Shown here: one piece after another, positions 3,317 to 28,764 of the stretch
How the letters are laid out: every line of letters starts with the position of its first letter
Position numbering within the stretch: position 1 is the first letter of the stretch
DNA from: a virus
Length of the DNA: 39,089 nucleotides
IMG/VR virus record: IMGVR_UViG_3300020215_000884
Span: 1 to 39,089 of that record
Reading direction: 5' to 3' (one strand)
Notes under the pieces: generated by a model
Database searches by the model: none
What the model was told of the DNA's origin: nothing
Seen by the model: the letters and a program-made list of their open reading frames with translations, nothing else
Translations under genes and position numbers: made by a program

Positions 3317-5074
3317 TCATCGCGGCACCGCCGTCCACGTGCCGGGAGTCCCAGGCGCGTCGCAGGTCCAGTATTCCGCGGTCGTGAAGGCCGTCACGTC
3401 GCCGTTGTTGAAGACGCGCTCGCCCTTGGCGTGATAGCCGGTCGTCGGCGGAGCTTTGGCCACCGTGATCGCCCGGCCCTCGTTCCCCGCCCCGAGGAAT
3501 ATCTCGATCGGGTTGAGGACGCCCTTCTGAGCCGCCGAGCGGCCGAAATTATAGGGGCTGGCGGTGGTCGTGAACTGCCAGGAAACCGGCTCGTTGCCGG
3601 TGTAGAAGCCGACCAGCCCGGTGCCGTTGAACTTCAGCCCGGTCGCATCCGGAGCGATCGTGGCGTGCGAGAAGCGATAGACGATGTCCTGGGCGAGATT
3701 GGAGAACGCCTCGCCCCAAGAAGCGGTGCTGCCGCTGCCGACGGCGGTGTAGAAACCGCCGCTCGAGGAAAGCCGTCCGGAATCCGCATGCTCGAGAAGG
3801 CCGGAGATGCCGGCGCCATGCGTTCCCCCGACCGCGAAGGCAGGGGAAACGAGGATCGTCGGCGGCTGCGAGCCTTCCGAATAGCAGCTGACAAAGAGAT
3901 TGCCGTGCCCGGAAGGGGACGTCGCGCAATAGGCGCCGCCGGCCTTGTAGGTCGTGCCGCTGACCCAGGCCGAGGCGGTGACGGCTTCGCCGTTCGTCTT
4001 CTCGACCCAGGCCGTGCCGGTCCCCGGCGCCTGCGTTGACGCGGCCGCCTCGTGGTCGGGATGGACGGCCCAGGTCTTGCCGCCGTGAGTGACGACCGCC
4101 GCCAGGGTCCTCCCGCCGCCGTTGCCGACGACGCCGTTCAGCGAGGCGTGGCACTGGATGATCGTGCCGCCGAGGAAGCTCTTGTTTTCGATCCCCCAAT
4201 TGCCGTTGCCGACGAGATCGAGACCCATGATGACGAACGCATTGGTGTCGCCGCCGTCCAGGAAGACGCCGGAGCCTCCGCAGTCCGTGATCCGCCCGCC
4301 GATGATCCGGAAGAGGCTCCCCTCCCCCGTCGCACCGCCGTCGGCCTCGCAATGATAGCCGTTGCCCCCGAAGTCCCTGATCCCGACATTCTCGGCGAAG
4401 ATGCGGGCGCTGAACTCGATCCCGTGAGCTCCGGTATCGGATCCGGAGCCGACCAGGACGAGGTTGCGGAAGGTCGTCCCGGCTCCGGTCGTCGTGCCGC
4501 TCACCGCCTCGTGACGGACGTTGAAGCCCGTCTTGTCGGCGGCGAACCTGAGGACCGTGGCCGCGCTGAGGTTGGTCGAGCCGGTCGCGCAACCCTCGAT
4601 TATCACCGCCTTGTCGATGACGATCGTGTCGGAGAAATAATATTCGCCGGGAGGAAAGAATATCCGTCCGCCGGCGGGGTCCGTGAACGGCGCAATGGTC
4701 TCGGAAACCATCGCGATCGCCGCCTCGAGCGCGTCGACAAAATCGGTCGTGCCCGGGTCTACGTTGGGCTTGATGGTGGTGATGTCGATGAAGCCGCGCG
4801 CGGCAATCTCCAGCCATCGCCCGGCCTCAAGCGGATCGACGTCATCCGGCCTTATGATGCCCGGAGGCTGATCGTCGGCTTCCGAGGATGGAGCCCAGAC
4901 ATAGACACCTCCGGCCCGGTCGCCGGCCGCTTCACCGCCCTCGACGATGACGTTCTCCCCGCCTTCCAGATCGGCGGTGGGGAGCGCGCGCAACGCCTCG
5001 CGCGTCGCCACGCTGAGCAGTTCGTCCGCCGGTCCCGCCGGAAGGCGGACGACAATCGCGGGAGCGTCTACCAT
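3317..5074 (-). CDS. Tailspike or tail fibre with right-handed beta-helix (pectate-lyase-like fold)
   Basis: The protein has 585 residues. The first 110 or so look like a virion-attachment head with a segment on display of parameters (GGVYVWAPSS). It is followed by a parallel beta-helix signature from about residue 120: GGRIFFPPGEYYFSDTI, VIIEGCATGSTN, then repeated short Asn/Gly-rich turns (GIEFSARIFAENVGIRDFGGNGYH, in parts; GVFLDGGDTNAFVIMG). This is the pectate-lyase-3 style found in podovirus tailspikes that bind and often cut surface polysaccharide. The C-terminal 40 residues are a small separate domain. The active site cannot be located by eye. It lies next to the ejection genes, as expected for a P22-like adsorption protein. 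Confidence 0.82.
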   Translation of the reverse strand: MVDAPAIVVRLPAGPADELLSVATREALRALPTADLEGGENVIVEGGEAAGDRAGGVYVWAPSSEADDQPPGIIRPDDVDPLEAGRWLEIAARGFIDITTIKPNVDPGTTDFVDALEAAIAMVSETIAPFTDPAGGRIFFPPGEYYFSDTIVIDKAVIIEGCATGSTNLSAATVLRFAADKTGFNVRHEAVSGTTTGAGTTFRNLVLVGSGSDTGAHGIEFSARIFAENVGIRDFGGNGYHCEADGGATGEGSLFRIIGGRITDCGGSGVFLDGGDTNAFVIMGLDLVGNGNWGIENKSFLGGTIIQCHASLNGVVGNGGGRTLAAVVTHGGKTWAVHPDHEAAASTQAPGTGTAWVEKTNGEAVTASAWVSGTTYKAGGAYCATSPSGHGNLFVSCYSEGSQPPTILVSPAFAVGGTHGAGISGLLEHADSGRLSSSGGFYTAVGSGSTASWGEAFSNLAQDIVYRFSHATIAPDATGLKFNGTGLVGFYTGNEPVSWQFTTTASPYNFGRSAAQKGVLNPIEIFLGAGNEGRAITVAKAPPTTGYHAKGERVFNNGDVTAFTTAEYWTCDAPGTPGTWTAVPR

Positions 5075-5175
5075 TTGCCCAAAGCCCTGCTATGATCGAA
5101 CGATGCACGTCGCTTTTCTCTGCTGGAGAGCTGTCCGCGTGCTGTTGCTGTTCGTGCTGATGTATTTCTTTTCAT
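5068..5175 (-). CDS. Candidate 35-aa basic mini-protein bridging ejection and tailspike genes
   Basis: A short frame fills the otherwise empty gap exactly. Its ATG (5175-5173) overlaps the stop of the large ejection gene in an ATGA quartet, and its TAG (5070-5068) overlaps the beginning of the tailspike gene. The product starts MKRNTSARTATARGQ and ends ALGKW. It is very basic, with no membrane segment. It may be a real tiny protein or a translation-coupling ORF that keeps ribosomes on the message up to the tailspike start, which has no strong ribosome binding site. A plus-strand 40-codon frame over the same bases has no supporting context. Confidence 0.4.
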   Translation of the reverse strand: MKRNTSARTATARGQLSSREKRRASFDHSRALGKW

Positions 5176-8895: not shown

Positions 8896-9561
8896 CTAGC
8901 CGCCCGCCGGGAGCTTGCTGACGCCCCCATAGCTGGATCCGAACGCCGCCGTCCCCGCATTCACGAGGTTCTGGATCAGGCGCTGGATGTTCTCCGACGA
9001 GGCGTTGGCGGCGTCGATCCGGGCCCGCCCAGCCTCTCCGGTGGCGCCGATGATCTGATTGGTCGCCTGCCCCCCCACTCCGGCGACCAGGCCGCGAGCG
9101 TTGGCGCCGGCCGACTGAAGCCCGCCGAGATAGGACAGGTAGTTTCCAAACTCTCCGCTGGCGAGGTTCTGGTTGAACTGGGAGCCGGCCTTCAGGGTCG
9201 CACCGCTGATGCCCGAGCCCCCGGCGAAGGCGCGATTGTTGATCGCTCCCATGCCCTCGGCCAGACGGGTGGTGTAGCCGGTCGAGCCCTTGTAGGTCTC
9301 GAATGCCCTGGCGGCAGCTTCTGCGTCGCCTCCCAGGCCGAGCAACGCCCCGATAGTGCCCTCGGCGTCGCCTCCCAGGCCGATGGTCGGCGCGTTCAGC
9401 CCATATTGATAGTCGCGGTTCTCTTTCGCAGCGGCGATTTGCATCGCGGCCGTCTGTTGCGCGATCTTGGCGACCTTCCTCGCGCCTTTGCCGCCGAAAA
9501 GTCCGCCAAGCGCGCTGCCGAGGACGCTGATCCCCGCAGCGGCGACCATCGGGGCGACCAT
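8896..9561 (-). CDS. DNA-transfer or internal virion protein, 221 aa
   Basis: The N-terminus is hydrophobic and Gly/Ala-rich (MVAPMVAAAGISVLGSALGG), followed by a helical KVAKIAQQTAAMQIAAAKENR stretch (split here as seen) and a body rich in Gly, Ala, Asn and Gln. This composition and the order after the gp10-like stabiliser match small ejection proteins of P22-like phages (gp7-like). A GGGGGA ribosome binding site sits about six bases before the ATG. It is preceded by an 83-base gap carrying the TTAGGTTT/hairpin element, so it may have its own RNA processing or expression control. Confidence 0.62.
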   Translation of the reverse strand: MVAPMVAAAGISVLGSALGGLFGGKGARKVAKIAQQTAAMQIAAAKENRDYQYGLNAPTIGLGGDAEGTIGALLGLGGDAEAAARAFETYKGSTGYTTRLAEGMGAINNRAFAGGSGISGATLKAGSQFNQNLASGEFGNYLSYLGGLQSAGANARGLVAGVGGQATNQIIGATGEAGRARIDAANASSENIQRLIQNLVNAGTAAFGSSYGGVSKLPAGG

Positions 9562-9615: not shown

Positions 9616-9646
9616 CGGTAAGAGGATACCGCCTCTAAACCTAATC
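9616..9646 (-). promoter_or_regulatory. Late-operon intergenic element A (TTAGGTTTAG plus hairpin)
   Basis: On the minus strand, GATTAGGTTTAG (9646-9635) follows the preceding gene's stop codon at once. It is followed three bases later by the hairpin CGGTA-TCCTCT-TACCG (9631-9616). The same arrangement occurs at 16563-16602 and 18646-18682, and a variant at 11339-11373. It could be an RNA processing or stabilising site or an internal regulatory element. There is no T-run, so it is not a simple terminator. Confidence 0.5.
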
Positions 9647-9989
9647 AGGGCTCCAGAGCGGAAATGCGCGCTTCATGGTCGGCGAGGGCAGTATTATGGT
9701 TGGCGAGGGTAGTATTGATCGTGGACACGGCCGCGTTCGCGGTGTCGGCGTCCGCCTGGGCCGCCAAAGCGGCCGTTTCCGCGGCTTCCGCCGCGGCGGC
9801 GGCGGCCTCGGCGGCGGCCTGGGCGACCTCGATCGCCGTCGCGAAGTCGACCAGTTCATTCAGGAGGTTGCGGATGTTGCGGACATTGCCGTTGAGCCAG
9901 CCCAGGAACTCGGCCGTAGGCCTGCCCTCGCGGTCGACGATGGCGCGGACCTGCTGAAGCTCGGCGAGGTTGACTGGAGTGAAAGGCAT
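9645..9989 (-). CDS. Coiled-coil virion protein, candidate tail needle or fibre component
   Basis: This 114-residue protein has a short folded N-terminus (MPFTPVNLAELQQVRAIV), then a continuous Ala-rich helix with heptad-like spacing (about 48-113; AIEVAQAAAEAAAAAAEAAE, ...NHNTALADHEARISALEP). Long Ala-coil trimers of this type are common in phage needles and fibre stalks. It directly follows the gp10-like stabiliser (TAA immediately before ATG), which is where P22 has its tail-needle gene. It is much shorter than P22 gp26 (233 aa), so the needle assignment is tentative. Confidence 0.5.
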   Translation of the reverse strand: MPFTPVNLAELQQVRAIVDREGRPTAEFLGWLNGNVRNIRNLLNELVDFATAIEVAQAAAEAAAAAAEAAETAALAAQADADTANAAVSTINTTLANHNTALADHEARISALEP

Positions 9990-11336
9990 TTAGCGCCATC
10001 CCTCATTGGCCATGGCGCCGGCTATCCGCACTTTCACGTCATCATCGATACGTATTTCGAAGCTGCGGTAAGGCTGGTCCGGAGTTCCCATCCTGTAGAG
10101 GCTGACGACGTCCATCGGCGCGCGCGCCTCAAGCTCCTCATAATGGGCGGGATAGTCGTCCTGGCCGTCTTTCCAGCGGACCCGCAGGGTGAAGTCCGCG
10201 GATGCGCCCACGCCGATGGACAGGCTGTCCTGTCGCCCGCTCCGGCCCATGAAGGCGAGCGTGCCGCTGAGCTTGCGGACCATGACATCGCCCCGGTCGG
10301 CATTGGTCGACGGATCGAGCGTCGAGACGATGCCGCTCGACTCCTCCCCGACCAGACAGGTTCCGTCCGCGGCGAAGGTCGCGACGTGCGGATTTCCCTG
10401 TGCCCATGCGAACTGTGGCCACACGCCCTTGGCAGGCGATGCCGGATCGTAGACGAAGGAGCCCTGACCGGGGATCTTCAGGACGTAGAATTTATGGCCG
10501 TCATGCTCCAGGACCATGGCTGACGGCTCGCCGGTGCGCTTCCTGAGCCGCTCCTCGATGCTGTGGTCGCTGATCCGCTGGGGGACGTTGCCGAGCCTGT
10601 AGACGACCGCGTCGTCTCCGACCCAGATGAGGCTGTTGTCGAAACGATGGAGGGTGTCGCGGGCGAGACAGCCGCGGGAGAATGTCCGGCCGGCCGCCCT
10701 CAGGAATGCCGCGTCGGAGTCCCCTGTCGGCTGCCACACCTCAGCCGAACGGCGACCGAACAGGAATAGTTCGCCCGCCAGGGCCCGCGAGGCGACGAGC
10801 CCGTCAGGCGAGCTCTCGGCCGTGGCGAAATGGAGCGCGTCGACCTCGTCCGAACCCGGTTCCAGCCAATAGAAGCGGCCGTCCGGACAGGCGAGGATGA
10901 GGAAGTTGTTGAGGGTGTCGATGTCGGCGACGGCGCGGTCGTCCGGCATCTCGATCGCCTCGAGATCGGTACCGTCATATTGGTGTGGAATCGTCGAGGA
11001 GAGAAGGAACAGCTTCTCGTAATTCGCGACCATCGGGGCCCGCCCGGAGCCTCCTACAGCGCCGATGTTCGTTTTCGTCCCATCGTCGATGCTGAGAAGC
11101 GAGCCCCCGGCCACCGCGAAAAGGAGACCGCTGAATACCTGGTCCTGTTGGAAAAGCCCCCTTACCGCACCGCCGAGGTCGATATGTTCCGTGAGGCCCG
11201 GCCGCTGGAGGCGCATGACGTTGTCGGGCGAGGCACCGGATTTGTCTTCCTCCAGGTAGAAATTGACGCACAGGCTCTCGGGCTGGAAAGCGTCGTCGCG
11301 CCTGTAGGCGCTGAGGGCGAGCGGCACCGGCGGCAT
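9990..11336 (-). CDS. Packaged-DNA stabilisation protein (P22 gp10-like)
   Basis: At 448 residues it is close to P22 gp10 (472 aa), a beta-propeller tail factor that closes the portal vertex after packaging. The N-terminus (SAYRRDDAFQPESLCVNFY) and the repeating Trp/Gly beta-strand segments (for example RFYWLEPGSDEVDALHFA, SLIWVGDDAVVYRLG, HKFYVLKIPGQGSFVYD) match the family's propeller blades. It lies after the connector gene and before the coiled-coil and ejection genes. The stop TAA abuts the next ATG. Its start is preceded by an 8-bp hairpin whose 3' arm includes the AGGG that would serve as ribosome binding site, so its translation may be controlled. Confidence 0.82.
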   Translation of the reverse strand: MPPVPLALSAYRRDDAFQPESLCVNFYLEEDKSGASPDNVMRLQRPGLTEHIDLGGAVRGLFQQDQVFSGLLFAVAGGSLLSIDDGTKTNIGAVGGSGRAPMVANYEKLFLLSSTIPHQYDGTDLEAIEMPDDRAVADIDTLNNFLILACPDGRFYWLEPGSDEVDALHFATAESSPDGLVASRALAGELFLFGRRSAEVWQPTGDSDAAFLRAAGRTFSRGCLARDTLHRFDNSLIWVGDDAVVYRLGNVPQRISDHSIEERLRKRTGEPSAMVLEHDGHKFYVLKIPGQGSFVYDPASPAKGVWPQFAWAQGNPHVATFAADGTCLVGEESSGIVSTLDPSTNADRGDVMVRKLSGTLAFMGRSGRQDSLSIGVGASADFTLRVRWKDGQDDYPAHYEELEARAPMDVVSLYRMGTPDQPYRSFEIRIDDDVKVRIAGAMANEGWR

Positions 11337-11338
11337 TG

Positions 11339-11373
11339 CCCTGAAGATAGCCTTCAGGGTACTGGAAACCTAA
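11339..11373 (-). promoter_or_regulatory. Late-operon intergenic element D: TTAGGTTT plus perfect 8-bp hairpin before the gp10-like gene
   Basis: On the minus strand TTAGGTTT (11373-11366) is followed by the perfect hairpin CCCTGAAG-GCTAT-CTTCAGGG (11359-11339). This ends two bases before the ATG and holds the only AGGG near it. The sequestered ribosome binding site suggests translational control of the gp10-like gene. The hairpin sequence differs from elements A-C, but the TTAGGTTT box and order are the same. A second short dyad, GCCGC-TAG-GCGGC, lies about 20 bases further upstream. Confidence 0.5.
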
Positions 11374-11428
11374 AGAAGGGACCAAACTTGCCGCCTAGCG
11401 GCTTTCGAGCTTTGGAGGGATATGTGGA

Positions 11429-12049
11429 CTAGCCCGGAAACCTCAGCACGGTCTCGGCGATGTGGCCAACCTCTCGGGATAGGGTGTGGTCGATGTAGAT
11501 GGGGATTCCGGCCTCCCTAAGCCGGCGGCAGAAATAGCGGTCCTCCCCTATGTGAACGTTTGGCGCGGGCCACTCCTCCTTGAACATTGGCCAAAAGTCT
11601 CCGCCCGTCGCCTCGGCATGACGCTGAAGGTCGTCCATCACTCCCATCGCCAGGAGGCACATGCCGAGACCCACGCTCTCAACCTCCTGAAGACCGTCCC
11701 GCCCGACGCTTTCGACTATCGCCCCCTCCGCAACCGCGGTGGCCGAGTGCGGCGGGGCGCGGCGCGGCTGGTTTATCCCGATCACCGGCTTCTTGTGTTC
11801 CAATAACCTAACCAAAGCATTGGCCGGAAACTCGTGGTCGCAATCCAGCATAAGCGCAAAATCCGCGCGCGCTTGGCGGGCTCGAGAAAGGAGAGCGTTG
11901 CGCGCCACGCTTAGCGCCGAAAGGCTCACCGTGGACGTCTGGACGTCAGCTGCGATTTTACTGACCGTGAACGCTACGAGGTTGGCGAGACTGTGAACGA
12001 ACTGAGGGGGAGCGCCGCCATGAATGGGAACGAGTATCGCGATATTCAC
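11429..12049 (-). CDS. GT-A-fold glycosyltransferase-like protein, 206 aa
   Basis: The start MNIAILVPIHGGAPPQFVHSL and the motif FALMLDCDHEFP (DxD at D69-D71, the usual metal and nucleotide-sugar site) are characteristic of family 2-type glycosyltransferases. Later IGINQPRR, GMCLLAM and EDRYFCRRLREAGIPIYID (the ED motif of the acceptor side) support this. No membrane segment is seen. It lies inside the virion operon between a carbohydrate-binding-like protein and the gp10-like gene. It might glycosylate a virion component, or the host surface after infection. The GTG start at 12049 is the best available, although its ribosome binding site is distant. Confidence 0.78.
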   Translation of the reverse strand: MNIAILVPIHGGAPPQFVHSLANLVAFTVSKIAADVQTSTVSLSALSVARNALLSRARQARADFALMLDCDHEFPANALVRLLEHKKPVIGINQPRRAPPHSATAVAEGAIVESVGRDGLQEVESVGLGMCLLAMGVMDDLQRHAEATGGDFWPMFKEEWPAPNVHIGEDRYFCRRLREAGIPIYIDHTLSREVGHIAETVLRFPG

Positions 12050-12076
12050 TAGCGATGATTGGCAGATTTCCGCTCC

Positions 12077-12874
12077 TTACGCTATTCTTTTCACGGAAAA
12101 ATTGTCCATCGAAAGCGTTGCGCCGGACGTAGCGGCAAGCGTGAACGTCTGCGTAAATGTGTCCGAAATCACCCGCTCTTCCGTGTAGGTGCCAGGGACT
12201 GGCCGCCCCGTCCCACTGCCGGCAAATGAGAAAAACGCCGTGCCTGCCACTCGCGACACGAGCGTGAACGTGACTTCATAGGTGCCGGCGTTGACCGGAT
12301 GGATGCTTGACGTTTGCGTACACGTCTTTGTGCCGGACCCGCCCGCGGCGTTCAGGGTGCCGCCGGAAATGTTGGCGGGATTCGCCCCGCCCAGCGTCCA
12401 CCCATCGGCGCTGTCGAAACCGCCGTTGACGACGAGCTCGACGTTAAGCGGCGTTTCGACGGGACCAGTGACGACTATATCGTCGACCGACAAAACAGGG
12501 CCGCCGTTGGCGACGAATGTTTGGGTCGGGCCGGCACGGATAAGCTCGCTGTAGGTGCCGTTTGCGCTTCGGGCTAGCCCGTTGGTACCCCCCAATTGTG
12601 CCTGAAAGGCCGATCCTTCAAAGTCGGACACCGTATACTCGACCTGGTAGAACAGGCCTTCCACAAGGGGGGAGTTCGTGTCGCGAAAAGCGGTTCCGTT
12701 CTCGCCGAATGTCAGCTTGCCGTCTGCAATGATGTTGGTGCCGCCGCCCTGGTCCGTGATCGTCCAACCAGCCGCGCTATCGAACGTCCCGTTGTCGATC
12801 AGGTTCTCGGGCCCGGCCGGGCCCGGCCGCCGTCTCGCCAGCAACAGCCGGAAATCGAGGGCTCGCGAACGCAT
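12077..12874 (-). CDS. Tandem carbohydrate-binding-like (jelly-roll) virion protein
   Basis: The 265 residues contain two similar modules of about 120 residues. The first begins NLIDNGTFDSAAGWT (about residue 25), the second LVVNGGFDSADGWT (about residue 147). Each ends in a D-N/D-hydrophobic strand (LSVDDIVV and LSMDNFSV). The NGxFD...W start is typical of CBM4/9-like beta-sandwich modules, often used as decorations on phage particles. The ATG at 12874 overlaps the preceding stop as TGATG; a TTG just upstream is less likely. Its neighbour is a glycosyltransferase, hinting at a sugar-related virion decoration. Confidence 0.7.
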   Translation of the reverse strand: MRSRALDFRLLLARRRPGPAGPENLIDNGTFDSAAGWTITDQGGGTNIIADGKLTFGENGTAFRDTNSPLVEGLFYQVEYTVSDFEGSAFQAQLGGTNGLARSANGTYSELIRAGPTQTFVANGGPVLSVDDIVVTGPVETPLNVELVVNGGFDSADGWTLGGANPANISGGTLNAAGGSGTKTCTQTSSIHPVNAGTYEVTFTLVSRVAGTAFFSFAGSGTGRPVPGTYTEERVISDTFTQTFTLAATSGATLSMDNFSVKRIA

Positions 12875-13173
12875 CAACCGAACACGATGAGGCCGGTTGC
12901 GGTCGTTCCCGTCTCCCTGACGATGACGCCGTTGCCGACCGGGATATATTCCCCTTCCAGGGCAGGAATGGTCACATCCGCCCCGCTGCCGGTCGCGCGC
13001 AGCACGACGTTGCCGGCGCCCGCCACCCTAAGATACTTGGCGGCGGCGAGCGTCGCGTCGTCCTCGGATATGTCGACCGCCGCGATAACCGTGATCTCGG
13101 CGGTGGCGGCGAGGTCGGAAATGCTCTGCTCGTCCAGGCCCACAGGCGCGGCCATGCCGTTCATGCGCTCCAT
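12874..13173 (-). CDS. Small beta-rich virion protein, 99 aa
   Basis: The N-terminal 23 residues are polar and helical, and the rest alternates hydrophobic and small residues as in a beta-sandwich (EITVIAAVDIS, VVLRATGSGADVTIPALEG, GNGVIVRETG). The ATG at 13173 overlaps the stop of the connector gene as TGATG. The order, directly after the head-tail connector, suggests a head-decoration or tail-accessory function. I do not recognise a family. Confidence 0.6.
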   Translation of the reverse strand: MERMNGMAAPVGLDEQSISDLAATAEITVIAAVDISEDDATLAAAKYLRVAGAGNVVLRATGSGADVTIPALEGEYIPVGNGVIVRETGTTATGLIVFG

Positions 13174-13811
13174 CAGTAAAAGCTCCCATAGGCTTCGCGC
13201 CGCGGCCGGCTGAAGCCGCTCACGAGGTTGGACCGGAAAATACCGGCAAGGCGAGAGGTGGCGCCCGTGACGTCGCCGCCATATTCGTCGGCGATCTGGA
13301 GGGCGAGAGCGGCCTTCAGCCCATCCTCGTCCCGGGTGGACAGGGGCGCGAGGTCGTCGAGACCCAGATCCCCGATCTGGATCCAGCGTCGGATCGAGCC
13401 GTCGTAGATATATTCCTGGGTCTCGCCGCTGTGGGCATCCGAGATGACTACCACGGAACAGTCACGCGGCGGCCTCAGGTCCGCGTCGGCGACGCTCGCC
13501 GGAGGAACCCAGCGCGAACCGTATTCGGCAGGACTGCCCAGCGACTCGCGGACGAGCTCGGGCAAGGTGATCTCGATTTCCACGTCGACATCGCTGTTGC
13601 GGAAGATGCGCTCGTTCTCGTGGGCGGTGTAGTCGCCGACCGGCACGACATCCCTCAGGCGTCCGAACGCGCCGGAGTCGATGAGGGAGCGGTAGAGTCC
13701 CTTCAACGATGCCAGCGCGTCGGTTGCGTCGGTCGATCGCGCCTCGCGACCGCTCGCCAGCTTACCCAGCTTGCGAAGCGCTCCGTTCACGACCGCCCGG
13801 CACGTCGCCAC
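13173..13811 (-). CDS. Head-tail connector (P22 gp4-like head completion protein)
   Basis: The protein opens MATCRAVVNGALRKLGKLASG with a DALASLKGLYRSLIDSGAFGRL segment (shown in part), the helical signature of gp4-type tail accessory factors that bind below the portal ring and act as docking site for gp10. Its 212 residues are slightly longer than P22 gp4 (166). The C-terminal half contains a helix (LKAALALQIADEYGG) typical of connector families. The location between the coat region and the gp10-like gene fits. The gene ends in a TGATG overlap. Confidence 0.72.
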   Translation of the reverse strand: MATCRAVVNGALRKLGKLASGREARSTDATDALASLKGLYRSLIDSGAFGRLRDVVPVGDYTAHENERIFRNSDVDVEIEITLPELVRESLGSPAEYGSRWVPPASVADADLRPPRDCSVVVISDAHSGETQEYIYDGSIRRWIQIGDLGLDDLAPLSTRDEDGLKAALALQIADEYGGDVTGATSRLAGIFRSNLVSGFSRPRREAYGSFY

Positions 13812-14162
13812 TTACTCCTCGGGCGTCTCGAGCGCCGACCGGCGCGCCTCGAGCGCGTCCAGCGCGCCGACTCGGGACTTGCCGCCCCTCTCTGCCTCGA
13901 TGAGCCGATCGATCTCCTCCACGTCGTCGACGCCGTCCAGATAGGCGGTCAGCTTCTCGACGCTCTGGTCCAGCGGACCCGGCTCCGTGGCTTCCTCTGC
14001 GGATGCCTTGGGGGCCGGCTTCTCGGCGGAGAAGGTCGGATTTGACCTCAGCTTCGCCAGGCGAGGGTGATCGTCCGGCACGTCCACGGCCTTGCCTCGA
14101 ACGAAGTGGATACCGGCTTCCGTGATCTCGGACTCTTCGCCGACATAGGTGATTTTCGCCAT
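13812..14162 (-). CDS. Small acidic head-associated protein, 116 aa
   Basis: The N-terminal 40 residues form a compact beta motif (MAKITYVGEESEITEAGIHF, VDVPDDHPRLAKLRSNPTF), similar to small domains seen beside coat genes in many phages. A Pro/Ala/Glu-rich linker and a C-terminal helical pair (about 70-112) follow. Start and stop overlap or abut their neighbours (TAATG with the previous gene), showing operon coupling. Its role is probably in head assembly or completion; I cannot assign a named family. Confidence 0.6.
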   Translation of the reverse strand: MAKITYVGEESEITEAGIHFVRGKAVDVPDDHPRLAKLRSNPTFSAEKPAPKASAEEATEPGPLDQSVEKLTAYLDGVDDVEEIDRLIEAERGGKSRVGALDALEARRSALETPEE

Positions 14163-14605
14163 TATGCGGGCTCCTCGATGTAACCATGAAGCTCGGCGAC
14201 GACGGTTCCGGTCGCGGCGCCGGTACCGGGGCCGGTCGTCACCTTCAGGACCACGTCCGTATACTTGGTCGTGACATAGTCCATGCCGGTCGCGGCAAGC
14301 GTGGTGGTGAAACCGCCGGCCTGACCGACCGTGGCGCCGCTGAAGTAGCGGTCGTCGTCATCCGCGTCGCCCAGCGACAGGACGATGGCCGGCGAGCCGT
14401 TGGTGTCCAGGTCGGACGCCTTCAGCATCCCGCCCGTCACCCGAAAGCGCGGGTGGAGCCGGAACATCGTCACGGTGTCGTCGGCGGCGAGGGCGGCGGT
14501 CAGGGTGAACTCACCGCGCTCGACCTTGATCGAACGGCCGCCGATACCCGGTCCGGAAACCGGATAGCGGGGAGCCGTCATCTGGAGAGATTTGTAAGCA
14601 GTCAT
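14162..14605 (-). CDS. Candidate head decoration protein, 147 aa
   Basis: The sequence is beta-rich and Thr/Gly-rich (for example RGEFTLTAALAADDTVTMF, VVLKVTTGPGTGAATGTVV) without membrane segments. The gene lies twelve bases after the major coat gene, the usual place for head-stabilising or decoration proteins. A charged loop (GDADDDDRYFSG, about residues 78-89) could bind metal or be surface-exposed. Assignment is by position and fold impression only. Confidence 0.6.
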   Translation of the reverse strand: MTAYKSLQMTAPRYPVSGPGIGGRSIKVERGEFTLTAALAADDTVTMFRLHPRFRVTGGMLKASDLDTNGSPAIVLSLGDADDDDRYFSGATVGQAGGFTTTLAATGMDYVTTKYTDVVLKVTTGPGTGAATGTVVAELHGYIEEPA

Positions 14606-14617
14606 CGTCTCGGCTCC

Positions 14618-15724
14618 CTATGCGTCGGCCACGGCCGCGGTGATGATTTCGAAGACGCCGTAGGCGGTGCCGCCACGGCTGATCTTCTTCTGACCGCGAA
14701 GCTCCTCGGTCGCGACGCCGGGACGGAACCCGTAGTCGCGGTCGGGATCGGAACGCGGCGTCGGCTGCTGCTCCCATGCGATGGCAACGGCGCTCTGCCC
14801 GCACAGGAAGTTGCGGACGACGTCGATCGAGGAAGCGCCGGCGCCGGCGATCACGGTGAGCTCGTCGGTTTCACGGATGATGACGCCGTCCCAGATGAGG
14901 TCGCCGTCCTGGAAGATCGGGTTGTCGATGCCGCGGGCCCGCGCGTCGCGGTTGGCCTGCTGCATCGCCGTGTCGTTCTTCAGATCGCGGAAGGCGAGCG
15001 GATGGGCGAACAGGACGAAATATTCACGTCCGTCCTCCGTCCGATAGGGGCGGATGCCCGGGTCGGCTGCCTTCGCCATGCGCTTGGCAAGCGAGATAAG
15101 CGACGTGGTCAGCTTGTCGTTGGTCGCGTCGATGTTCCCCAGCGCCGTTGCGAAGACGTTGGACGAGGCGTTCGACTTTGACGCTCCGAACAGCATCCGG
15201 TCGGCATTGTTGACGAGATGCGTGTTGCGCTGGCCGGCCGAGGCCGATGCATAGGCGACGGCCGTATCCGTGCCGGGAAGCCCGTTCTCGTCGTCGGCGC
15301 CGGGGACGATGATCGAGTTGAGCGATGCGACGATCGCATCCTTGAGGTTCGTCGCCGCCCAATCCTTCAAGAGCGGCTTGGCCGCCCCGAGAAGGTCCAT
15401 CTCCGTCCGGTAGGAGGTCGACTTGGGCACGACCACGCCGTTGCGGATCCAGCGGGTCCGCACCTGGTCGTTGAAGTTCTCCAGATCTTCCTCGTTGCCT
15501 TCCAGCACCTCGGAATCCTGGACGCCGCGGCCCTTGAGCCGGCCGAGCAGGGGGATGTTGATGATCGACGCACCGCCGGTCTCGGAACCGGTGAGGATGC
15601 GGAAGATCGCGGTCTGAGCGCGCCCCATGTAGGGCATGAACCGCGTCTCGCGGACATATTCGCTCAGGTATTTGTTGGACCACGTCTGCCTTTCGGAGGC
15701 GGTGGCAAGGACGACTTCGGCCAT
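14618..15724 (-). CDS. Major capsid protein, N4-gp56-like family
   Basis: At 368 residues, the sequence resembles the N4-gp56-type coat family: a helical N-arm (TWSNKYLSEYVRETRFMPYMG), a segment with INIPLLGRLKGRGV, RTRWIRNGVVVPKSTSYR, and GAAKPLLKDWAATNLKDAI. It probably adopts the HK97 fold. It follows the scaffold gene by six bases and precedes small head genes, exactly the expected order. No protease gene is seen nearby, and the N-terminus has no obvious processed delta domain, so maturation probably depends on scaffold exit as in P22. Confidence 0.88.
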   Translation of the reverse strand: MAEVVLATASERQTWSNKYLSEYVRETRFMPYMGRAQTAIFRILTGSETGGASIINIPLLGRLKGRGVQDSEVLEGNEEDLENFNDQVRTRWIRNGVVVPKSTSYRTEMDLLGAAKPLLKDWAATNLKDAIVASLNSIIVPGADDENGLPGTDTAVAYASASAGQRNTHLVNNADRMLFGASKSNASSNVFATALGNIDATNDKLTTSLISLAKRMAKAADPGIRPYRTEDGREYFVLFAHPLAFRDLKNDTAMQQANRDARARGIDNPIFQDGDLIWDGVIIRETDELTVIAGAGASSIDVVRNFLCGQSAVAIAWEQQPTPRSDPDRDYGFRPGVATEELRGQKKISRGGTAYGVFEIITAAVADA

Positions 15725-15730
15725 TTCTCG

Positions 15731-16447
15731 TTATCCCGGAAAGACGGCCTCGACTCCCGCGGTCGCCCCGGTCGGCACATGCTCGATTCCTCCCCCGGAA
15801 GGGGCGGTGACAAGGCTCGGCTTGGGCGCAGCAGGCTTCGCGGCCGGTTGCGGTGGCGCCGGCGGAGCGGGTCCGCCGGCAGGCGCTGCGATCAGTCCCA
15901 ATTCCGCTGCCCGGCGCCGGACATATTCGTCCGGATCGTCGCCGATCTGCGAAATCAGGGTCGACTGCTGATGCTGTCGGACGATCCAGTCGATCGGGTG
16001 GCGCTCGCGCATGTACTGGGCGGCGAAGATAGGATCACTGTTGGCCCGCTCCATCGCCCATTGGGCGGCGGCTTCGACCTTCTCCACGCCGTGATCCTTG
16101 CGCGCCAGCTCGTCGCTCATCTCGAAACGCAGTTGCGTCACGCGCTGGTCGACGAACCCTCTCTCTGCATCGTCGAAGGGAACGGGCTGGGGCTGACCGG
16201 ACGCTTTCGCCTCCTGCTCGGCCTTCCAGTGCTTCAGCTCCTTCAGCTCGTCCCGCAGGTCCAGGAACTTGGCGAGGGGCACGGTGTGCTCATCCCTGGC
16301 CTTCGGTTCCGGCTGCGGTTCAGGCTCTGGCGAAGGCTCCGGCGTCGGCTCGGGGGCCGGTTCCGGGGCAGGCTCGGGCTGCGGCTCGGGGGCAGGCGCC
16401 TCCGCTCCGAACAGTTCCTCGCCCATCTTCTCCAGTGCGTCCGCCAC
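15731..16447 (-). CDS. Capsid scaffolding protein
   Basis: The gene sits between portal and coat, as in P22-like phages. The 238-residue product is highly charged. Residues 18-48 are a striking Pro-Glu alternation (PEPQPEPAPEP and similar). A central helical region (about 55-160) and a Pro/Ala-rich stretch (about 190-220) follow. Scaffold proteins are typically acidic, helical and poorly conserved in sequence, binding coat through a C-terminal helix-turn-helix. The start at 16447 is preceded by GGAAGGG. A 158-base gap with the repeated TTAGGTTT/hairpin element separates it from the portal gene. Confidence 0.78.
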   Translation of the reverse strand: MADALEKMGEELFGAEAPAPEPQPEPAPEPAPEPTPEPSPEPEPQPEPKARDEHTVPLAKFLDLRDELKELKHWKAEQEAKASGQPQPVPFDDAERGFVDQRVTQLRFEMSDELARKDHGVEKVEAAAQWAMERANSDPIFAAQYMRERHPIDWIVRQHQQSTLISQIGDDPDEYVRRRAAELGLIAAPAGGPAPPAPPQPAAKPAAPKPSLVTAPSGGGIEHVPTGATAGVEAVFPG

Positions 16448-16562
16448 TGTTGCCCTTCCCTTCCGCTCGTATCGTGAGCGCCTACGACAGCAACTGTTGC
16501 GCCGTTGCCGCGTCCGGGTTGGTGTCGGGGACCGGAGCCTCGAAAGCTCCGCTTGGGGCGAA

Positions 16563-16602
16563 GCGGTATCGTGTTACCGCGCGCGGAAGGCTAAACCTAA
16601 TC
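16563..16602 (-). promoter_or_regulatory. Late-operon intergenic element B (TTAGGTTTAG plus perfect 6-bp hairpin)
   Basis: On the minus strand GATTAGGTTTAG (16602-16591) begins just after the portal stop codon. After ten bases comes the perfect hairpin GCGGTA-ACACGA-TACCGC (16580-16563). It shares the CGGTA/TACCG stem and six-base loop length with elements A and C, but the loop sequence differs. It lies about 115 bases before the scaffold gene; the remaining gap shows no other clear signal. Confidence 0.55.
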
Positions 16603-16605
16603 GGC

Positions 16606-18507
16606 TCAAACAGGCGGCCCCGCCCCCATATTGAAATAGGTTCTGGCCGTTTCCGCCTCTATCCGATCCGCCTCGGCCGCGGTCTTCGCCGCCTTCACCG
16701 CTTCATGGCCCTGCTCGAGCTCGGCGATCCGCGCCTGCATCATCTCCAGCGCCTGTTGGACCTGCGGGGGAAGCCCGCCCTGCTGCTCCTCCTTCAGCGC
16801 CTTGATTCTTTCCAGAACGCGCCCCTTGTCGGCCATCGGGCTCATCTCGATCAACAGCTCGAAATGCGGCGAGAAGGGGTCCACGCCAGAGCGGACGACC
16901 TCCAACATATCCGCGAACACTTCCTGCTGGAGATTGGCCGTGTCGGGCACGGTATCGACGATGATGTCCATATCCATTTCGGCGAGGCGGTTCTTCACTC
17001 CCACCTGGACCTGACCAGCCGTCATCATCGGCTGGCCGGCCGGATCGGTAAACGTCTGTCCTCCGACGACGACCGGCACCATGCCAGGCCCCATCACCGG
17101 CTCGTTGATCTGGAGGAACTCGGGCGCCTGCGTCTCGTCCGTGATCCGAATCCACATCGGCTCGGTCCAGAATTGCTGGGCGCGCCACCACATTTGCCGA
17201 TAGCACCGGTTCTCCCAGTCGCTGAAGCGGCCAAGCGGCCTGGCGAGCTCCGTCATGCCGGCCTGTTGCTTGACGAGGCGCGCGCGCCCGCTCTGGCCAG
17301 CCCCTTCCTGCCTGCCGAGGACCGCCGGCGTCGGCCCCATCCGCTCGATTTCCTGCTTGCTCTCGGCTAGAAGCAATTGCTGACCTGACGCGAGGTCGGC
17401 GACGGGGACGAGCTGCCAGCCTGAAGGGATCACGCCGTCCGCGCGGGACGCTTCCTGCCGGGCCGTGTCCGCGTCGACCTGGCCGGCTCCAGGCTGACTT
17501 TCCTGAAGCTGGCGGCTGTTCGCGAGGTGGAGAAGGCGGGACCTGCGCGCGTTGATCTCGTCCTGAATGGGGACCATGTTGCGCACGCGGCCGTAGCGCT
17601 CGTTGTCCCGGTCGATATAGCAGCTCACCGCCTCGATGGGGCAGAGGCTTCGGCCCTTGTCGTCGACATAGCCGGTGGAATCATGCTCGAGGACGCCGGC
17701 GCCCGTGTAGACGCAGCGATACCATTGCCCGGCCTTCTCGTAGAACAGGCTCACGACCAGGATACGGCTCGTCTTGCGATCGACCCATCGTCCCGCCGTC
17801 TCGGGCTTGTCCCCCCAGGTCTCCTCGAACAGCGCATCGTTGCCCGTAACGCTCATCAAGTCGCCGATACGGTCCGTCGCCTCCTGATAGACGCCGCGGA
17901 CGTAATCGCTGTGCAGCCACTGGGCGAAGCCGAGATAGCGGGCGTCCTTGAAATCGTGGCGGCGGGAACGGGGGTCGTAGAAGAACTCGCTCCATCGGAT
18001 CTGATTGGCGCTGATCGTCTCGCCGTCGCATTCGATGATGATCGCTGCAGGCCCCTCGATCAGAAAATCCTCGGCGCAGTCCAGCTTCACCTCGTCGAAA
18101 TTGGTGATGTCGGCGATATAGCGGAGCGTCTTGGTGGCGACGTCCGCCGCCTCCTCGCCGTTGGGGTTGCGCGGATAGGCGCGAGGATCGACCCTGCCTG
18201 CCTCCAGGACGCCGAGGATGCCGTCGATGCAGGGCTGAACGCGATTCGTCCAGATCGCCGGCTGCCCTCTCATCTTCAGCGTCGCCCGGACCTCCGAGTT
18301 GAGCTGCTTGGGCCCATCGTAATAGTCGCGGTCGGTCTGCTGCTTCTTCCGGGCCGCGGCGGTCAGGTCGCGGGCTTCATCGAAACGCTTCCTGAGATCG
18401 GTCAGCGCGGGGGGTTCCACTGGAAACAGCGTCTGCGACGGCCTGATCAGCCCGTCAGGATGACGAGGCATCTCCGACGACGCGCCGACGATCAGGGCAT
18501 CAGCCAT
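16606..18507 (-). CDS. Portal protein (P22-like podovirus type)
   Basis: The 633-residue product has portal family marks: an N-terminal helical region with DLRKRFDEARDLTAAARKK and DRDYYDGPKQL, then IWTNRVQPCIDGILGVLEA, RWSEFFYDPRSRRHDFKDA and DEINARRSRLLHLANSRQ, the core of the DNA-channel ring. The C-terminal 90 residues are helical, as in P22-like portals with a barrel. It forms the dodecameric vertex through which terminase packages DNA and to which the connector attaches. It overlaps the end of the 40-residue gene before it by eight bases. Confidence 0.9.
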   Translation of the reverse strand: MADALIVGASSEMPRHPDGLIRPSQTLFPVEPPALTDLRKRFDEARDLTAAARKKQQTDRDYYDGPKQLNSEVRATLKMRGQPAIWTNRVQPCIDGILGVLEAGRVDPRAYPRNPNGEEAADVATKTLRYIADITNFDEVKLDCAEDFLIEGPAAIIIECDGETISANQIRWSEFFYDPRSRRHDFKDARYLGFAQWLHSDYVRGVYQEATDRIGDLMSVTGNDALFEETWGDKPETAGRWVDRKTSRILVVSLFYEKAGQWYRCVYTGAGVLEHDSTGYVDDKGRSLCPIEAVSCYIDRDNERYGRVRNMVPIQDEINARRSRLLHLANSRQLQESQPGAGQVDADTARQEASRADGVIPSGWQLVPVADLASGQQLLLAESKQEIERMGPTPAVLGRQEGAGQSGRARLVKQQAGMTELARPLGRFSDWENRCYRQMWWRAQQFWTEPMWIRITDETQAPEFLQINEPVMGPGMVPVVVGGQTFTDPAGQPMMTAGQVQVGVKNRLAEMDMDIIVDTVPDTANLQQEVFADMLEVVRSGVDPFSPHFELLIEMSPMADKGRVLERIKALKEEQQGGLPPQVQQALEMMQARIAELEQGHEAVKAAKTAAEADRIEAETARTYFNMGAGPPV

Positions 18508-18622
18508 CCCTCATCGCCTTGAGCTTGGCGTCGATCTCCCTGATCCTGTCGGCGTAACCAGGCCCCATTCGGACGCTCGCGCGGCGCATGGCTTCTAGCC
18601 GAGCGATCTCGGCCTCCTTCAT
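18500..18622 (-). CDS. 40-aa basic helical protein before the portal gene
   Basis: From the ATG at 18622 the product is MKEAEIARLEAMRRAS... to the C-terminus KLKAMRDG, a charged helix with heptad spacing. Its stop overlaps the portal start (ATGGCTGA), so translational coupling is likely. A GTG at 18646 gives eight more residues but lies inside the conserved hairpin of element C and lacks a ribosome binding site. Small genes between terminase and portal are common in phages; the role is unknown. Confidence 0.55.
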   Translation of the reverse strand: MKEAEIARLEAMRRASVRMGPGYADRIREIDAKLKAMRDG

Positions 18623-18645
18623 CTTGGGCGAAAGCTTCTCCGGCA

Positions 18646-18682
18646 CGGTAATCCGATACCGCGAGCCGGACGCCAAACCTAA
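18646..18682 (-). promoter_or_regulatory. Late-operon intergenic element C (TTAGGTTT plus hairpin)
   Basis: On the minus strand TTAGGTTT (18682-18675) overlaps the terminase stop codon. Thirteen bases later comes the hairpin CGGTA-TCGGAT-TACCG (18661-18646). The stem sequence is identical to elements A and B, with a different six-base loop. Confidence 0.5.
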
Positions 18683-20309: not shown

Positions 20310-20618
20310 TCACGCCGCTTTCGCCCGGGGAGCGTAGCTCTCTAGGCTCGCCCGTTGCATTCCGTCCACGATCCTCATCGCCATCTCCAGGCTTACGCCC
20401 CATTGCGAGGCCAGTTTCTGGTAATATAGCACCATTGCCTCCAGTAACCTTGCGGAGCCGTCGAGTTTCTGTTCCTGGTCGGCCAACTCGCGCGCGGTAT
20501 CGTCCTTGCAATAGGAAGGGCATTCGGACCGATGGCCTCGTCCGCCGCGATTTACCGGCGCCGGCTGTTGCACCCCTACCCCTCCCTCATGTTTGTTGTG
20601 GCGCCAGCGGGTTGTCAT
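20310..20618 (-). CDS. Hypothetical protein upstream of the terminase genes, 102 aa
   Basis: The N-terminal 45 residues are basic and Gly-rich with two Cys residues (ECPSYCKDD). The rest is helical (ADQEQKLDGSARLLEAM, LASQWGVSLEMAMRIVDGM). The ATG at 20618 overlaps the preceding stop as TGATG; a GTG three bases upstream is an alternative. It may belong to the packaging or late-regulation module by position. I see no established domain. Confidence 0.5.
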   Translation of the reverse strand: MTTRWRHNKHEGGVGVQQPAPVNRGGRGHRSECPSYCKDDTARELADQEQKLDGSARLLEAMVLYYQKLASQWGVSLEMAMRIVDGMQRASLESYAPRAKAA

Positions 20619-22024: not shown

Positions 22025-22287
22025 CGGGCGATGCCTTCGGCCCGCGCTGGTCCGGCTTCGCCCCGAGCCGAATCTTCGTTCGTCTCGGCCATTCGGGGAC
22101 CATCGCTATCGCGGCGACAGTCCCGACACTTCCCGCGCCAGATAGTCCGAAGCCGAAAGCACGCCTCGCAGAAGCCGAGTGAACGCACATTGCGGCCGGG
22201 CCGTCGGTCAGGCGCACCAGCGCCAATTGGGCAGTCCGGTTCGGCGTCAATCAGCCGCAACCACCATTCTTTGGAGCGCGTGGTCAT
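22021..22287 (-). CDS. Small zinc-ribbon-like protein with repeat-derived C-terminus
   Basis: The 88-residue protein has a short Cys pattern in its first 60 residues (CPIG, FCEACF and KCRDC), consistent with one zinc site. The last 30 residues (from about RDSDGPRMAETN) are encoded by repeat copy R2. The ATG at 22287 overlaps the upstream stop, and its stop overlaps the methyltransferase start. The core looks like other small phage zinc proteins of unknown function. The repeat tail is unlikely to be needed for the core fold. Confidence 0.55.
   Translation of the reverse strand: MTTRSKEWWLRLIDAEPDCPIGAGAPDRRPGRNVRSLGFCEACFRLRTIWRGKCRDCRRDSDGPRMAETNEDSARGEAGPARAEGIAR
22026..22114 (+). repeat. 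Dispersed palindromic element, copy R2
   Basis: Plus-strand orientation, antisense to the gene that contains it: GGGCGATGCC start, CGGCTTCGCC hairpin, CCGAG...CTCGG arm closed by an inner CGAA...TTCG stem, and an ATCGCTATCGCGG end. It forms the C-terminal codons of the gene at 22021-22287, in the same frame as antisense copies R7 and R10. Confidence 0.75.
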
Positions 22288-23126
22288 TTGACCTTCGCCG
22301 AGAGGGCGGCAATGAAGGTCATGTCGTTTTCGCCACAGTATCGGCGGAAGGCAGCTTCGTGCAGCTCGCCGGTCAGCATGTCGATGCTGTGGCCGATAGT
22401 GCCGCCCTTCCACGACCCCTTGCGCTCTCCGGTCTCGCCGGAAAACTGGATGTCGAGCGACCGCTGAATTTTGGGCCGACGGAACAGCGAAAGCCATTTG
22501 AACCAGCCCTCGCCGAAGCGCCACTCGCGCTCCTCTATTCTCGTAGTCGCCGCTAAAAGCTCGCCGTCAAAGTCATGAAAGGCGAAGTCGGCGGTTGGGC
22601 ACGCATCTCTAACAGACTCCTCATCCCTGTGCCGTGCCAAAACGCCTTCGGACGACAAGCCGCGCCAAGACCGCTGCGGAATTGTGCCAACGAGTTCGCC
22701 ATTAAGGCCATAGAGGCTGTGTCGGACATGCCGCCACTGCGTCCATGGCAGGAAGCAACCCCAGCGCTGTTCCGTGCTGCTGTCATTCGTGACCCGACCC
22801 AATGAGACGGACAGATGGCCATCGCTGTAGGTGAAGCCGTATTCGCGCGGACCAGCATCCCAGTAGCCGCTATCCGGTCCTCTCGACCACTCATAACGAG
22901 AAGTGTCCACCCAGTGGCGCCAAGGCTTGATCAGCGCAGGCAGGGCCGTGATCAGGGTATGGCCGAAGCCGCTGAATCTGAGGGTGCAGACCGGAGACTC
23001 GTCGCCGTCTCCGGAGTTGAGAACGATGGCCAGGGGCCGATAGCCGCGATGGTCGCGTGCGTAGGTGAAAGGACCAAAGTTGTGGTCGTTGTCGCTCCAG
23101 CGGCGACGGTTCGCGGCGCTAGTCAT
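22284..23126 (-). CDS. Hypothetical phage protein, 280 aa
   Basis: The start at 23126 follows AAGGAGC with nine bases spacing. The protein is rich in Trp, Arg and Tyr (for example WSDNDHNFGPFTYARDHRGY, LPALIKPWRHWVDTSRYEW) and ends with a compact region around KWLSLFRRPKIQRSLDIQF and GSWKGGTIGHSIDML. No membrane segment or catalytic signature was recognised. It is in the leftward early operon between the replication/methyltransferase genes and RusA. It looks like a single folded cytoplasmic protein of unknown function. Confidence 0.65.
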   Translation of the reverse strand: MTSAANRRRWSDNDHNFGPFTYARDHRGYRPLAIVLNSGDGDESPVCTLRFSGFGHTLITALPALIKPWRHWVDTSRYEWSRGPDSGYWDAGPREYGFTYSDGHLSVSLGRVTNDSSTEQRWGCFLPWTQWRHVRHSLYGLNGELVGTIPQRSWRGLSSEGVLARHRDEESVRDACPTADFAFHDFDGELLAATTRIEEREWRFGEGWFKWLSLFRRPKIQRSLDIQFSGETGERKGSWKGGTIGHSIDMLTGELHEAAFRRYCGENDMTFIAALSAKVK

Positions 23127-23256
23127 AAGTCCAAGCTCCTTGAATGCGCGAGGGATCGTTACCCGACAGGGCGGAGACCGGAACGGGCTCCGGTGAGCGA
23201 AGCGAACTAGAGCCAGGTGCCGAAGGCACGCGCCCATCCTGATCTTCCAGGCTCAT
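23119..23256 (-). CDS. Repeat-derived mini-ORF, 45 aa, bridging two genes
   Basis: The frame begins MSLEDQDGRVPSAPGS and ends RIQGAWTYD. Its ATG overlaps the stop of the gene at 23253-23552 (ATGA), and its stop lies eight bases inside the next gene's start region (ATGACTAG). Nearly all of it is repeat copy R3, read in the same frame as R1, R4 and R6. It is unlikely to have a specific fold. It may simply be the readable trace of a repeat insertion that keeps the operon translated through the gap of about 125 bases. Confidence 0.35.
   Translation of the reverse strand: MSLEDQDGRVPSAPGSSSLRSPEPVPVSALSGNDPSRIQGAWTYD
23147..23238 (-). repeat. Dispersed palindromic element, copy R3
   Basis: Minus-strand orientation: GGGCGCGTGCC start, TGCCTTCGGCA hairpin, GGAG...CTCC arm (compensating the usual CGAG...CTCG) with an inner CCG-TT-CGG, CCC-TGTC-GGG hairpin, and a CTCGCGC end that pairs with the start. 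It fills most of the gap between the neighbouring genes. Confidence 0.7.
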
Positions 23257-25172: not shown

Positions 25173-25589
25173 TCAGGCGGCCTCCCGGATGCCATCGACG
25201 CGGGCCGCCCAGCGGCCGATGAAGGTGACGAGCTGGTCGAAGTTGCAATCCCGCCAGTTGCCGGTGACGCCGTCCTTGATTGCGCGAAACGAGTAGACCT
25301 CGGACGACTTATATTCGCAGCGAACGACGATTACGGTGATGTGGTCAGACAGGCGCGTCAGCGCCTCGAAAGCCCTGCGCTGGCCATCTTTCAGGTCGGC
25401 GGCGCGCTCTTTGAATTCGGTAATCAGGAAGTGGCCGTTGAGCTCAACGAATCCGTCCAGATCGGTCATCGCGATTCCGCGCGGGAAGCACTGAGCGAAA
25501 ACTTCGATGTCGAAGTGCCGGTGATAGTTGAAACAGCCGCTCACCAAGCAATTCCAGGCTATCGGATTGTAGCCGCGGGGAGGTGTCAT
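25173..25589 (-). CDS. Putative PD-(D/E)XK nuclease-like protein, 138 aa
   Basis: The segment MTDLDGFVELNGHFLITEFK (about residues 41-60) has the order D-x-D-G...E-F-K expected of a PD-(D/E)XK active site, where the Asp, Glu and Lys lie on consecutive strands. A helix with DGQRRAFEALTRL and an alternating strand (HITVIVVRCEYK) follow. It could be a Holliday-junction- or Vsr-type nuclease, or an inactive relative. The ATG overlaps the stop of the ParB-methyltransferase gene. Neighbouring recombination genes make a nuclease plausible. Confidence 0.58.
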   Translation of the reverse strand: MTPPRGYNPIAWNCLVSGCFNYHRHFDIEVFAQCFPRGIAMTDLDGFVELNGHFLITEFKERAADLKDGQRRAFEALTRLSDHITVIVVRCEYKSSEVYSFRAIKDGVTGNWRDCNFDQLVTFIGRWAARVDGIREAA

Positions 25590-26737: not shown

Positions 26738-27103
26738 CTACCCCCTCCCCTTCTTAAGGAGGGCTCTACGATCCTCGTTGGAGAGGTAGAGGGACGGCTT
26801 CTCGGAAAGCCAGTTGATCCGAGTGCGCCCATAGACAGGAATATCGATAACGTCGGATCGGCAGATGCGCCGGGGCGGAGGCGGGGCGATCGGCGGGGCC
26901 TCGTCGACAAGAACCTCAATGGCGCGGGCCCTGTTGCGGAGGCGGCGGATGAAGCCGCGTTCCTCCAAGGCCTCGAGCAACCGAAAGACACCGCTCCGGC
27001 TGCCAAGCCCCAGCGCCTTCCGCATCTCCTCGAAGCTCGGGCACAACTCCCTCGTCTGGATATAGACCAGCAGCTCGCGCATGCGGGGGGTGAGGCCGAT
27101 CAT
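26738..27103 (-). CDS. LexA-like winged-helix DNA-binding protein without protease domain
   Basis: Residues 1-65 (from [20 protein letters not shown]) match the LexA N-terminal domain: [20 protein letters not shown] is the recognition region, [19 protein letters not shown] the wing. The remaining residues are Pro-rich ([10 protein letters not shown]) with a short end, and the S24 peptidase domain of LexA is absent, so it cannot self-cleave. The ATG at 27103 overlaps the preceding frame's stop (ATGA) and has GAGGG upstream; an in-frame TTG earlier is weaker. It is probably a phage transcription regulator in the left operon. Confidence 0.75.
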
Positions 27104-27438
27104 GCCGCCCTCGTAGAAATACGTGCGGCGCGGCTGATCCAAGTTAGTGGCGTTCTCAGTGAGTTACGGGCAAAGGTGGACGTTCTGCCTGAGGGGTTGG
27201 GCGATTCTCCGTGGTATGGAGATACGCCTTGGAAACGAATGTTGTTGTCCACCTCGACGGGCCGCCGGCCGTTCAAATTCGCAAGGGCGTGGCCCGCGTT
27301 GTCGATCACACCGGAGGCATCCGGATTGAGCGGGCGATGGCCGTTTCCGATCTGGAGGAATATGTCGCGCGCGGAAAACGGGCGCTGGAGCGCTTTGCCC
27401 GCGGCGAGGGGGACGTTGTTGAGGACTGAGACGCTCAC
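27100..27438 (-). CDS. Unidentified protein, 112 aa (strand uncertain)
   Basis: The minus-strand frame joins both neighbours by exact overlaps: GTG with the Cro-like gene's stop (GTGA) and stop with the LexA-like ATG (ATGA). That strongly suggests a real coupled gene. Its third codon positions are mostly G or C. However, the product ([18 protein letters not shown]... ending [11 protein letters not shown]) is low in charge and unfamiliar, and a plus-strand frame at 27211-27429 encodes a more protein-like sequence ([27 protein letters not shown]). I prefer the minus strand because of context, at moderate confidence. Confidence 0.45.
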
Positions 27439-27639: not shown

Positions 27640-27668
27640 AGTATACGGGACGTGTCCCGCACGCAAGC
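27640..27668 (-). promoter_or_regulatory. Left early promoter with operator O1
   Basis: The -10 box is TATACT at 27645-27640. A weak -35 (GCTTGC or CTTGCG) lies at about 27668-27662. The spacer is filled by the operator GCGGGA-CACG-TCCCGT (27660-27645 on this strand), so a bound repressor would block the promoter. Predicted start of transcription is about 27633, next to the Cro-like ATG at 27629. Confidence 0.6.
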
Positions 27669-27675
27669 GCCTTAT

Positions 27676-27691: not shown

Positions 27692-27693
27692 AA

Positions 27694-28761: not shown

Positions 28762-28764
28762 CTG

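Follow-up and report, generated by a model that had tools for sequence, protein, structure and literature searches.

The closest known arrangement to the one described here appears to be that of phage Mu, in which the activator C acts at four late promoters (Plys, PI, PP and Pmom). These separate promoters serve virion and lysis genes, share one protein-binding dyad and have weak −10 and −35 elements (PMC4461284). The position of the dyad differs: C activates from a site that overlaps the −35 element or lies upstream of it (PMC4461284), whereas the dyad studied here, GGTAT[C/T]-NN-[G/A]ATACC, covers the −10 position, and no C/Mor-like gene was identified. Another parallel comes from the CtrA sites of alphaproteobacterial phages (‘lytic deferment’), where unrelated phages share the operator of one host regulator; the CtrA motif, TTAA-N7-TTAA, is nevertheless unlike this dyad (PMC9437464). 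The stoperators of cluster A mycobacteriophages are likewise repressor sites distributed genome-wide, intergenic positions included, but they are many, asymmetric and bound by the immunity repressor (PMC9283540). Here, about three symmetric sites all stand at virion genes, and they differ from the putative immunity operators of the same phage (GCGGGA-N4-TCCCGC). Finally, lambdoid nut sites (boxA/boxB) also combine a short box with a following inverted repeat and recur within an operon; in the present case, by contrast, there is no covariation, and the geometry is tied to a −10-like TA and not to a hairpin.

We analysed a viral stretch of 39,089 nucleotides (the window). The phage is temperate, as an S24-type repressor and an integrase are present, and its virion operon is related to that of cyanophage Pam1. 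A search for prophages in sequenced genomes found none. There are exactly four copies of the box TTAGGTTT in the window, always on the minus strand and in the late operon (0.18 expected; at least four copies in 0 of 100 shuffles), and there is no further exact copy on either strand. All four boxes lie in or touch gaps of the late operon, which amount to 507 of 16,991 bp (3%); the probability of four out of four by chance is about 8e-7. Three boxes are followed by CGGTA-N6-TACCG, and these are the sole exact GGTAN6TACC sites in the window. The fourth (site B) has an unrelated 8-bp inverted repeat instead. The initial annotation had described a box plus inverted repeat in four late-operon gaps, with a common stem in three, an unrelated 8-bp stem in the fourth and no box noticed outside the operon, and the exact-match count, the shuffles and the pattern search of the window bear this out. 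Its statement that few gaps exceed 60 bases and that four of these carry the element is right about the four gaps, but the gap at 5075–5171 is also longer than 60 bp and has no box. The features are the following.

18675–18682, minus strand: site D box, TTAGGTTT, at the putative −35 position for the small ORF and portal gene; overlaps the TAG stop of the terminase gene by a few bases; TTAGGT-N18-TATCGG.
18647–18660, no strand: site D putative operator dyad, GGTATCGGATTACC, over the presumed −10; a dyad is at the same junction in L006, L007, G004 and G007–G012.
16593–16600, minus strand: site C box, TTAGGTTT, at the −35 position of the putative scaffold/capsid promoter; TTAGGT-N18-TAACAC.
16565–16578, no strand: site C putative operator dyad, GGTAACACGATACC, over the presumed −10; the scaffold start is 117 bp from the dyad, against 47–138 bp in relatives.
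11366–11373, minus strand: site B box, TTAGGTTT, at the −35 position of the putative needle-head promoter; without GGTAN6TACC; TTAGGT-N18-TATCTT.
11339–11359, no strand: site B inverted repeat, CCCTGAAG-N5-CTTCAGGG, over the presumed −10; differs from the dyad and occurs once in the window.
9637–9644, minus strand: site A box, TTAGGTTT, at the −35 position of the putative needle/ejection promoter; immediately 3′ of the TGA stop of the gene at 9645–9989; TTAGGT-N18-TACCGT.
9617–9630, no strand: site A putative operator dyad, GGTATCCTCTTACC; the presumed −10 position is the TA of the right half-site.

Comparison with Pam1 and PHROGs identifies the genes that follow these elements as a needle/ejection gene (8896–9561), a needle head/Hc3 gene (PHROG 578, 9990–11336), the scaffold gene (15731–16447) and a short ORF plus portal gene (16606–18507). 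The neighbouring genes named earlier (ejection, gp10-like, scaffold and 40-aa/portal) are thus confirmed. A one-mismatch dyad, GGTGCTATATTACC, lies at 20420–20433, 112 bp ahead of the small terminase gene, and is possibly a further promoter or a chance match.

We consider it probable that the four elements serve as late promoters within the operon of a temperate, podovirus-like phage and share a dimeric regulator. The role of −35-position element would fall to TTAGGTTT, and that of the −10 to a hexamer with a TA 18 bp further downstream. At three sites this −10 would be inside a two-fold operator of 14–20 bp for a homodimeric DNA-binding protein, and at the fourth a different inverted repeat takes its place. 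Transcription of the portal, scaffold/capsid, needle-head and needle/ejection modules would begin at these promoters. A dimer on the dyad would block polymerase; that is, a repressor would keep the virion genes silent in the prophage or until the late phase begins. What the sequences show directly is the repeat and its conservation, a symmetry that lacks covariation, a constant spacing and a tie to the downstream start; we infer promoter activity, repression and the use of one protein for all sites.

The fixed spacing within the elements, together with the enrichment of TTG/TTA described below, points to the box as a −35-position element with the dyad over the −10. TA is rare in the late operon, at 1.7% of positions. 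TTAGGTTT stands exactly 18 bp ahead of a TA in all four copies, and TTAGGT-N18-TA matches all four sites, site B included, and nothing else in the window (0.09 expected). Of 46 related sites, 11 have a TTG at position −21 relative to the dyad (0 of 5000 rotations), which gives a 17-bp spacer from TTGNNN to the TATYNN of the left half-site; a weaker second peak at −13 is 17 bp ahead of the TA of the right half-site. Altogether, TTG or TTA precedes the left or right dyad TA by 16–18 bp at 23 of the 46 sites (8.7 expected; 0 of 5000), in statistics that treat related sites as independent once near-identical ones are removed. The spacer is constant within each phage: 18 in the window, 16 in L006 (TTGCTT-16-TA, three occurrences) and 17 in L007. 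The seemingly odd distances between box and dyad (22, 22 and 14 bp in the window; 12, 12 and 20 in L006) are explained by the 8-bp gap between the two TA steps of the dyad.

Sigma-70 transcription starts 6–8 bp beyond the −10. The spacing of 16–18 bp, kept between copies, is that of a sigma-70 promoter, but the hexamers are not near TTGACA/TATAAT, and a consensus scan calls none of the four sites, so they are promoter-like only. TTAGGT is a poor −35, and most of the −10 hexamers are without the final T. At about half of the 46 sites, TTG/TTA is missing from the expected position, so that another −35 or an activator would be needed there. The eight-base box is better conserved than an ordinary −35 requires, so it may be read by another protein, for instance an activator or a sigma factor of the phage. 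Some sister phages that lack the dyad show a clear TTGAC-N18-GACAAT promoter at the portal/scaffold junction, which supports these junctions as promoter sites. In sister phages at eight loci (L015, L022, L024, L031, L036, L038, L045 and L103) GACAAT-N9-11-CTATGCYTRAA, with the 11-base box CTATGCYTRAA, replaces the dyad at the same junctions.

Conservation was assessed in relatives, defined as IMG/VR loci encoding related capsid and needle-head proteins. In the first loci fetched, TTAGGTTT is absent except from the near-identical L005 and from L015 and L016, where the matches appear to be due to chance. What is kept at the same junctions is GGTA-N6-TACC, in phages whose proteins are 45–72% identical, whereas the repeated box is phage-specific. 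For example, L006 has its own box, TTGCTTGCAA, in three copies adjoining the dyad. The junctions concerned are terminase/portal, portal/scaffold and needle or tailspike, and the dyads precede portal, scaffold, needle/acetyltransferase or tailspike genes. The initial annotation had suggested looking for the motif at the same junctions in relatives. Its proposal outlives that comparison because relatives carry the element there, although this holds for the dyad and not for the box itself.

The spacer of the dyad is specific, with 66 matches for N6 against 10–21 for N4, N5, N7 and N8 (overlapping loci being counted twice). In 14 dyad phages (records of 33–41 kb) there are 2–4 dyads per record, mostly 3, and 0–2 matches of the reversed pattern, although some whole-record dyads in G005 and G007 look like chance. 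Across all viral contigs, the TTAGGTTT-plus-dyad pattern and an extended dyad give match numbers at about the chance level for the size of the collection (an estimate made without a computed control), so the element looks lineage-specific. Overall, some 20 related phages keep the dyad at the starts of virion modules, though no early gene was found that is common to all of them. Elsewhere, L346 has two dyads 26 bp apart (4657–4696) ahead of an ORF resembling a small terminase subunit, with no detected kinship to the virion genes of the window.

The initial annotation had suggested that the elements form hairpins in the intergenic RNA, which would stabilise or process the late transcripts or be bound by an RNA-binding protein, and so set protein ratios. 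The sites can indeed be drawn as hairpins and, in the window, stand just after stop codons. Folding of the single strand gives little more: one of the four window elements folds better than its own shuffles (z −2.1), but the other three do not (z above −0.8), on which ground a stable RNA structure was rejected, and the dyad copies of L034 and L042 also fold like shuffles. Rfam has no match for the elements. An intrinsic terminator consists of a G+C-rich stem followed by a U run; this candidate was likewise rejected, as a terminator scan finds none formed by the four inverted repeats, which have no U run, and the only match nearby is a stem that precedes the site D box.

Aligned sites are more telling. 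The consensus of 45 non-redundant sites is AC-N-GGTAT[C/T]-NN-[G/A]ATACC-N-GT, and its half-sites, GGTAT[C/T], are mirror-equal: positions 4 and 9 have T in 33 and 35 sites, and positions 5 and 8 have C/T in 29/14 and 27/13. No symmetric pair shows covariation in a test that took sites with exact GGTA/TACC and so bears directly on the other symmetric pairs only. For the quartets themselves, the argument rests on a count of variants with the TYNNRA core: 25 exact, 1 compensatory and 1 single. The stem sequence is therefore fixed and the loop variable, without the compensatory stem changes of an RNA hairpin. Moreover, the innermost symmetric pair (5/8) would close a loop of 2 nt, and RNA rarely permits two-base loops. 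The equal inverted half-sites vary independently, as in the operator of a homodimer; equal half-sites without covariation are the signature of reading by a protein dimer. In seven cases the site is embedded in the coding sequence upstream (terminase, portal or acetyltransferase), with the distance to the downstream start kept, so the dyad follows the downstream start and not the upstream 3′ end.

Because covariation is lacking, stem variants are nearly absent, copies lie within genes and box and dyad have the geometry of a promoter, we prefer a reading at the DNA level, and the best reading of the elements would be promoters with an operator. The RNA-hairpin explanation is improbable, given also the in-gene copies and the constant distance to a −35-like box. 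From the earlier interpretation we retain a regulatory element at junctions where the expression of modules could be set, and not the hairpin.

Antitermination of the nut type, in which TTAGGTTT would be boxA and the dyad would form the boxB hairpin, the two being read in RNA by a phage antiterminator and Nus factors, would fit a box and stem-loop joined by a linker of variable length and repeated along one operon, and the L006 box slightly resembles boxA. Yet each phage has just two linker lengths, which differ by 8 bp, the separation of the two TA steps; the loops differ among copies within one phage, with no covariation; and no shared antiterminator-like gene was found among the dyad phages. 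We regard this explanation as very unlikely.

The symmetry of the core has another possible origin. Since TAT[C/T]NN[G/A]ATA holds a −10-like hexamer on both strands, the dyad could be two overlapping −10 elements on opposite strands, as described by Warman and colleagues, without a separate operator; shared −10 symmetry is known to yield divergent transcription (PMC12825309). However, a −10 has no need of the invariant outer GG/CC and would be expected to keep the final T of the hexamer, which is not conserved here; no oppositely directed genes stand at the dyad junctions either, which makes a bidirectional promoter highly implausible.

Coming back to promoters with an operator, the dyad might bind a late activator, as C does in Mu, and not a repressor. 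Mu likewise has several late promoters that combine a common dyad with weak −10 and −35 elements, but its C site either overlaps the −35 or lies upstream of it (PMC4461284). Here the −10 may lie in one half-site or the other, 8 bp away, and this freedom is difficult to reconcile with a fixed polymerase contact and makes a repressor the most plausible regulator. In addition, the dyad is only 12–22 bp from the start codon at tailspike genes and thus leaves no room for a downstream promoter. An activator is accordingly a doubtful alternative.

As for the regulator itself, all-against-all BLAST, phmmer and PHROGs revealed no non-virion gene family common to all dyad phages; the shared families comprise only virion, peptidase, holin-like and membrane genes. 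The binder may therefore be encoded by the host or by a fast-changing phage gene. It is conceivable, if rather unlikely, that a host-encoded homodimeric regulator restrains late promoters across many phages whose early regions are unrelated, and ties virion production to the state of the host; the operator would then be conserved because the host protein is, while the phage regulators have all been exchanged. A 134-aa LexA-type DNA-binding protein (26738–27142, minus strand, without the protease part) was rejected as the regulator, being present in only 2 of the 14 dyad phages. An immunity-repressor operator or stoperator was also rejected, since no exact dyad occurs outside the late operon and a different palindrome is found at the S24 repressor gene. 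There, GCGGGA-N4-TCCCGC-like palindromes cluster round the gene (27645–27711 and 28740–28785) and are probably the immunity operators.

A large group of uncultured phages has one conserved, putative operator at virion-module junctions without sharing early genes. If a host protein binds there, the state of the bacterium could control the making of virions in many phages; a phage-encoded binder would be one missed by similarity searches. The dyad site can be used as bait (a 20-bp duplex) for the binding protein.

The leader of the scaffold gene has features of its own. In the portal–scaffold gap of most relatives (for example, L008:4365–4437, L034:2345–2416 and L396:3518–3595) it contains tandem GCCGCCG-N(2-14)-GGGCG, a motif that is not in the window but is present in Pam1. 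The 159 kb of sequence preceding the capsid gene contain 182 matches, compared with 95 in 4.65 Mb elsewhere, and Rfam has no match to this leader in the loci searched; its appearance is that of a conserved leader RNA whose stem is bulged. The window has a hairpin, CGCTC-ACGATAC-GAGCG, just ahead of the scaffold start (16464–16480, minus strand), and relatives show, by eye, the same loop on other stems. Further along the window, on the minus strand, are an Acb3 family CBASS inhibitor (22284–23237, E 4e-89) and a ParB-like domain fused to an N6-adenine methyltransferase-like domain (25586–26734).
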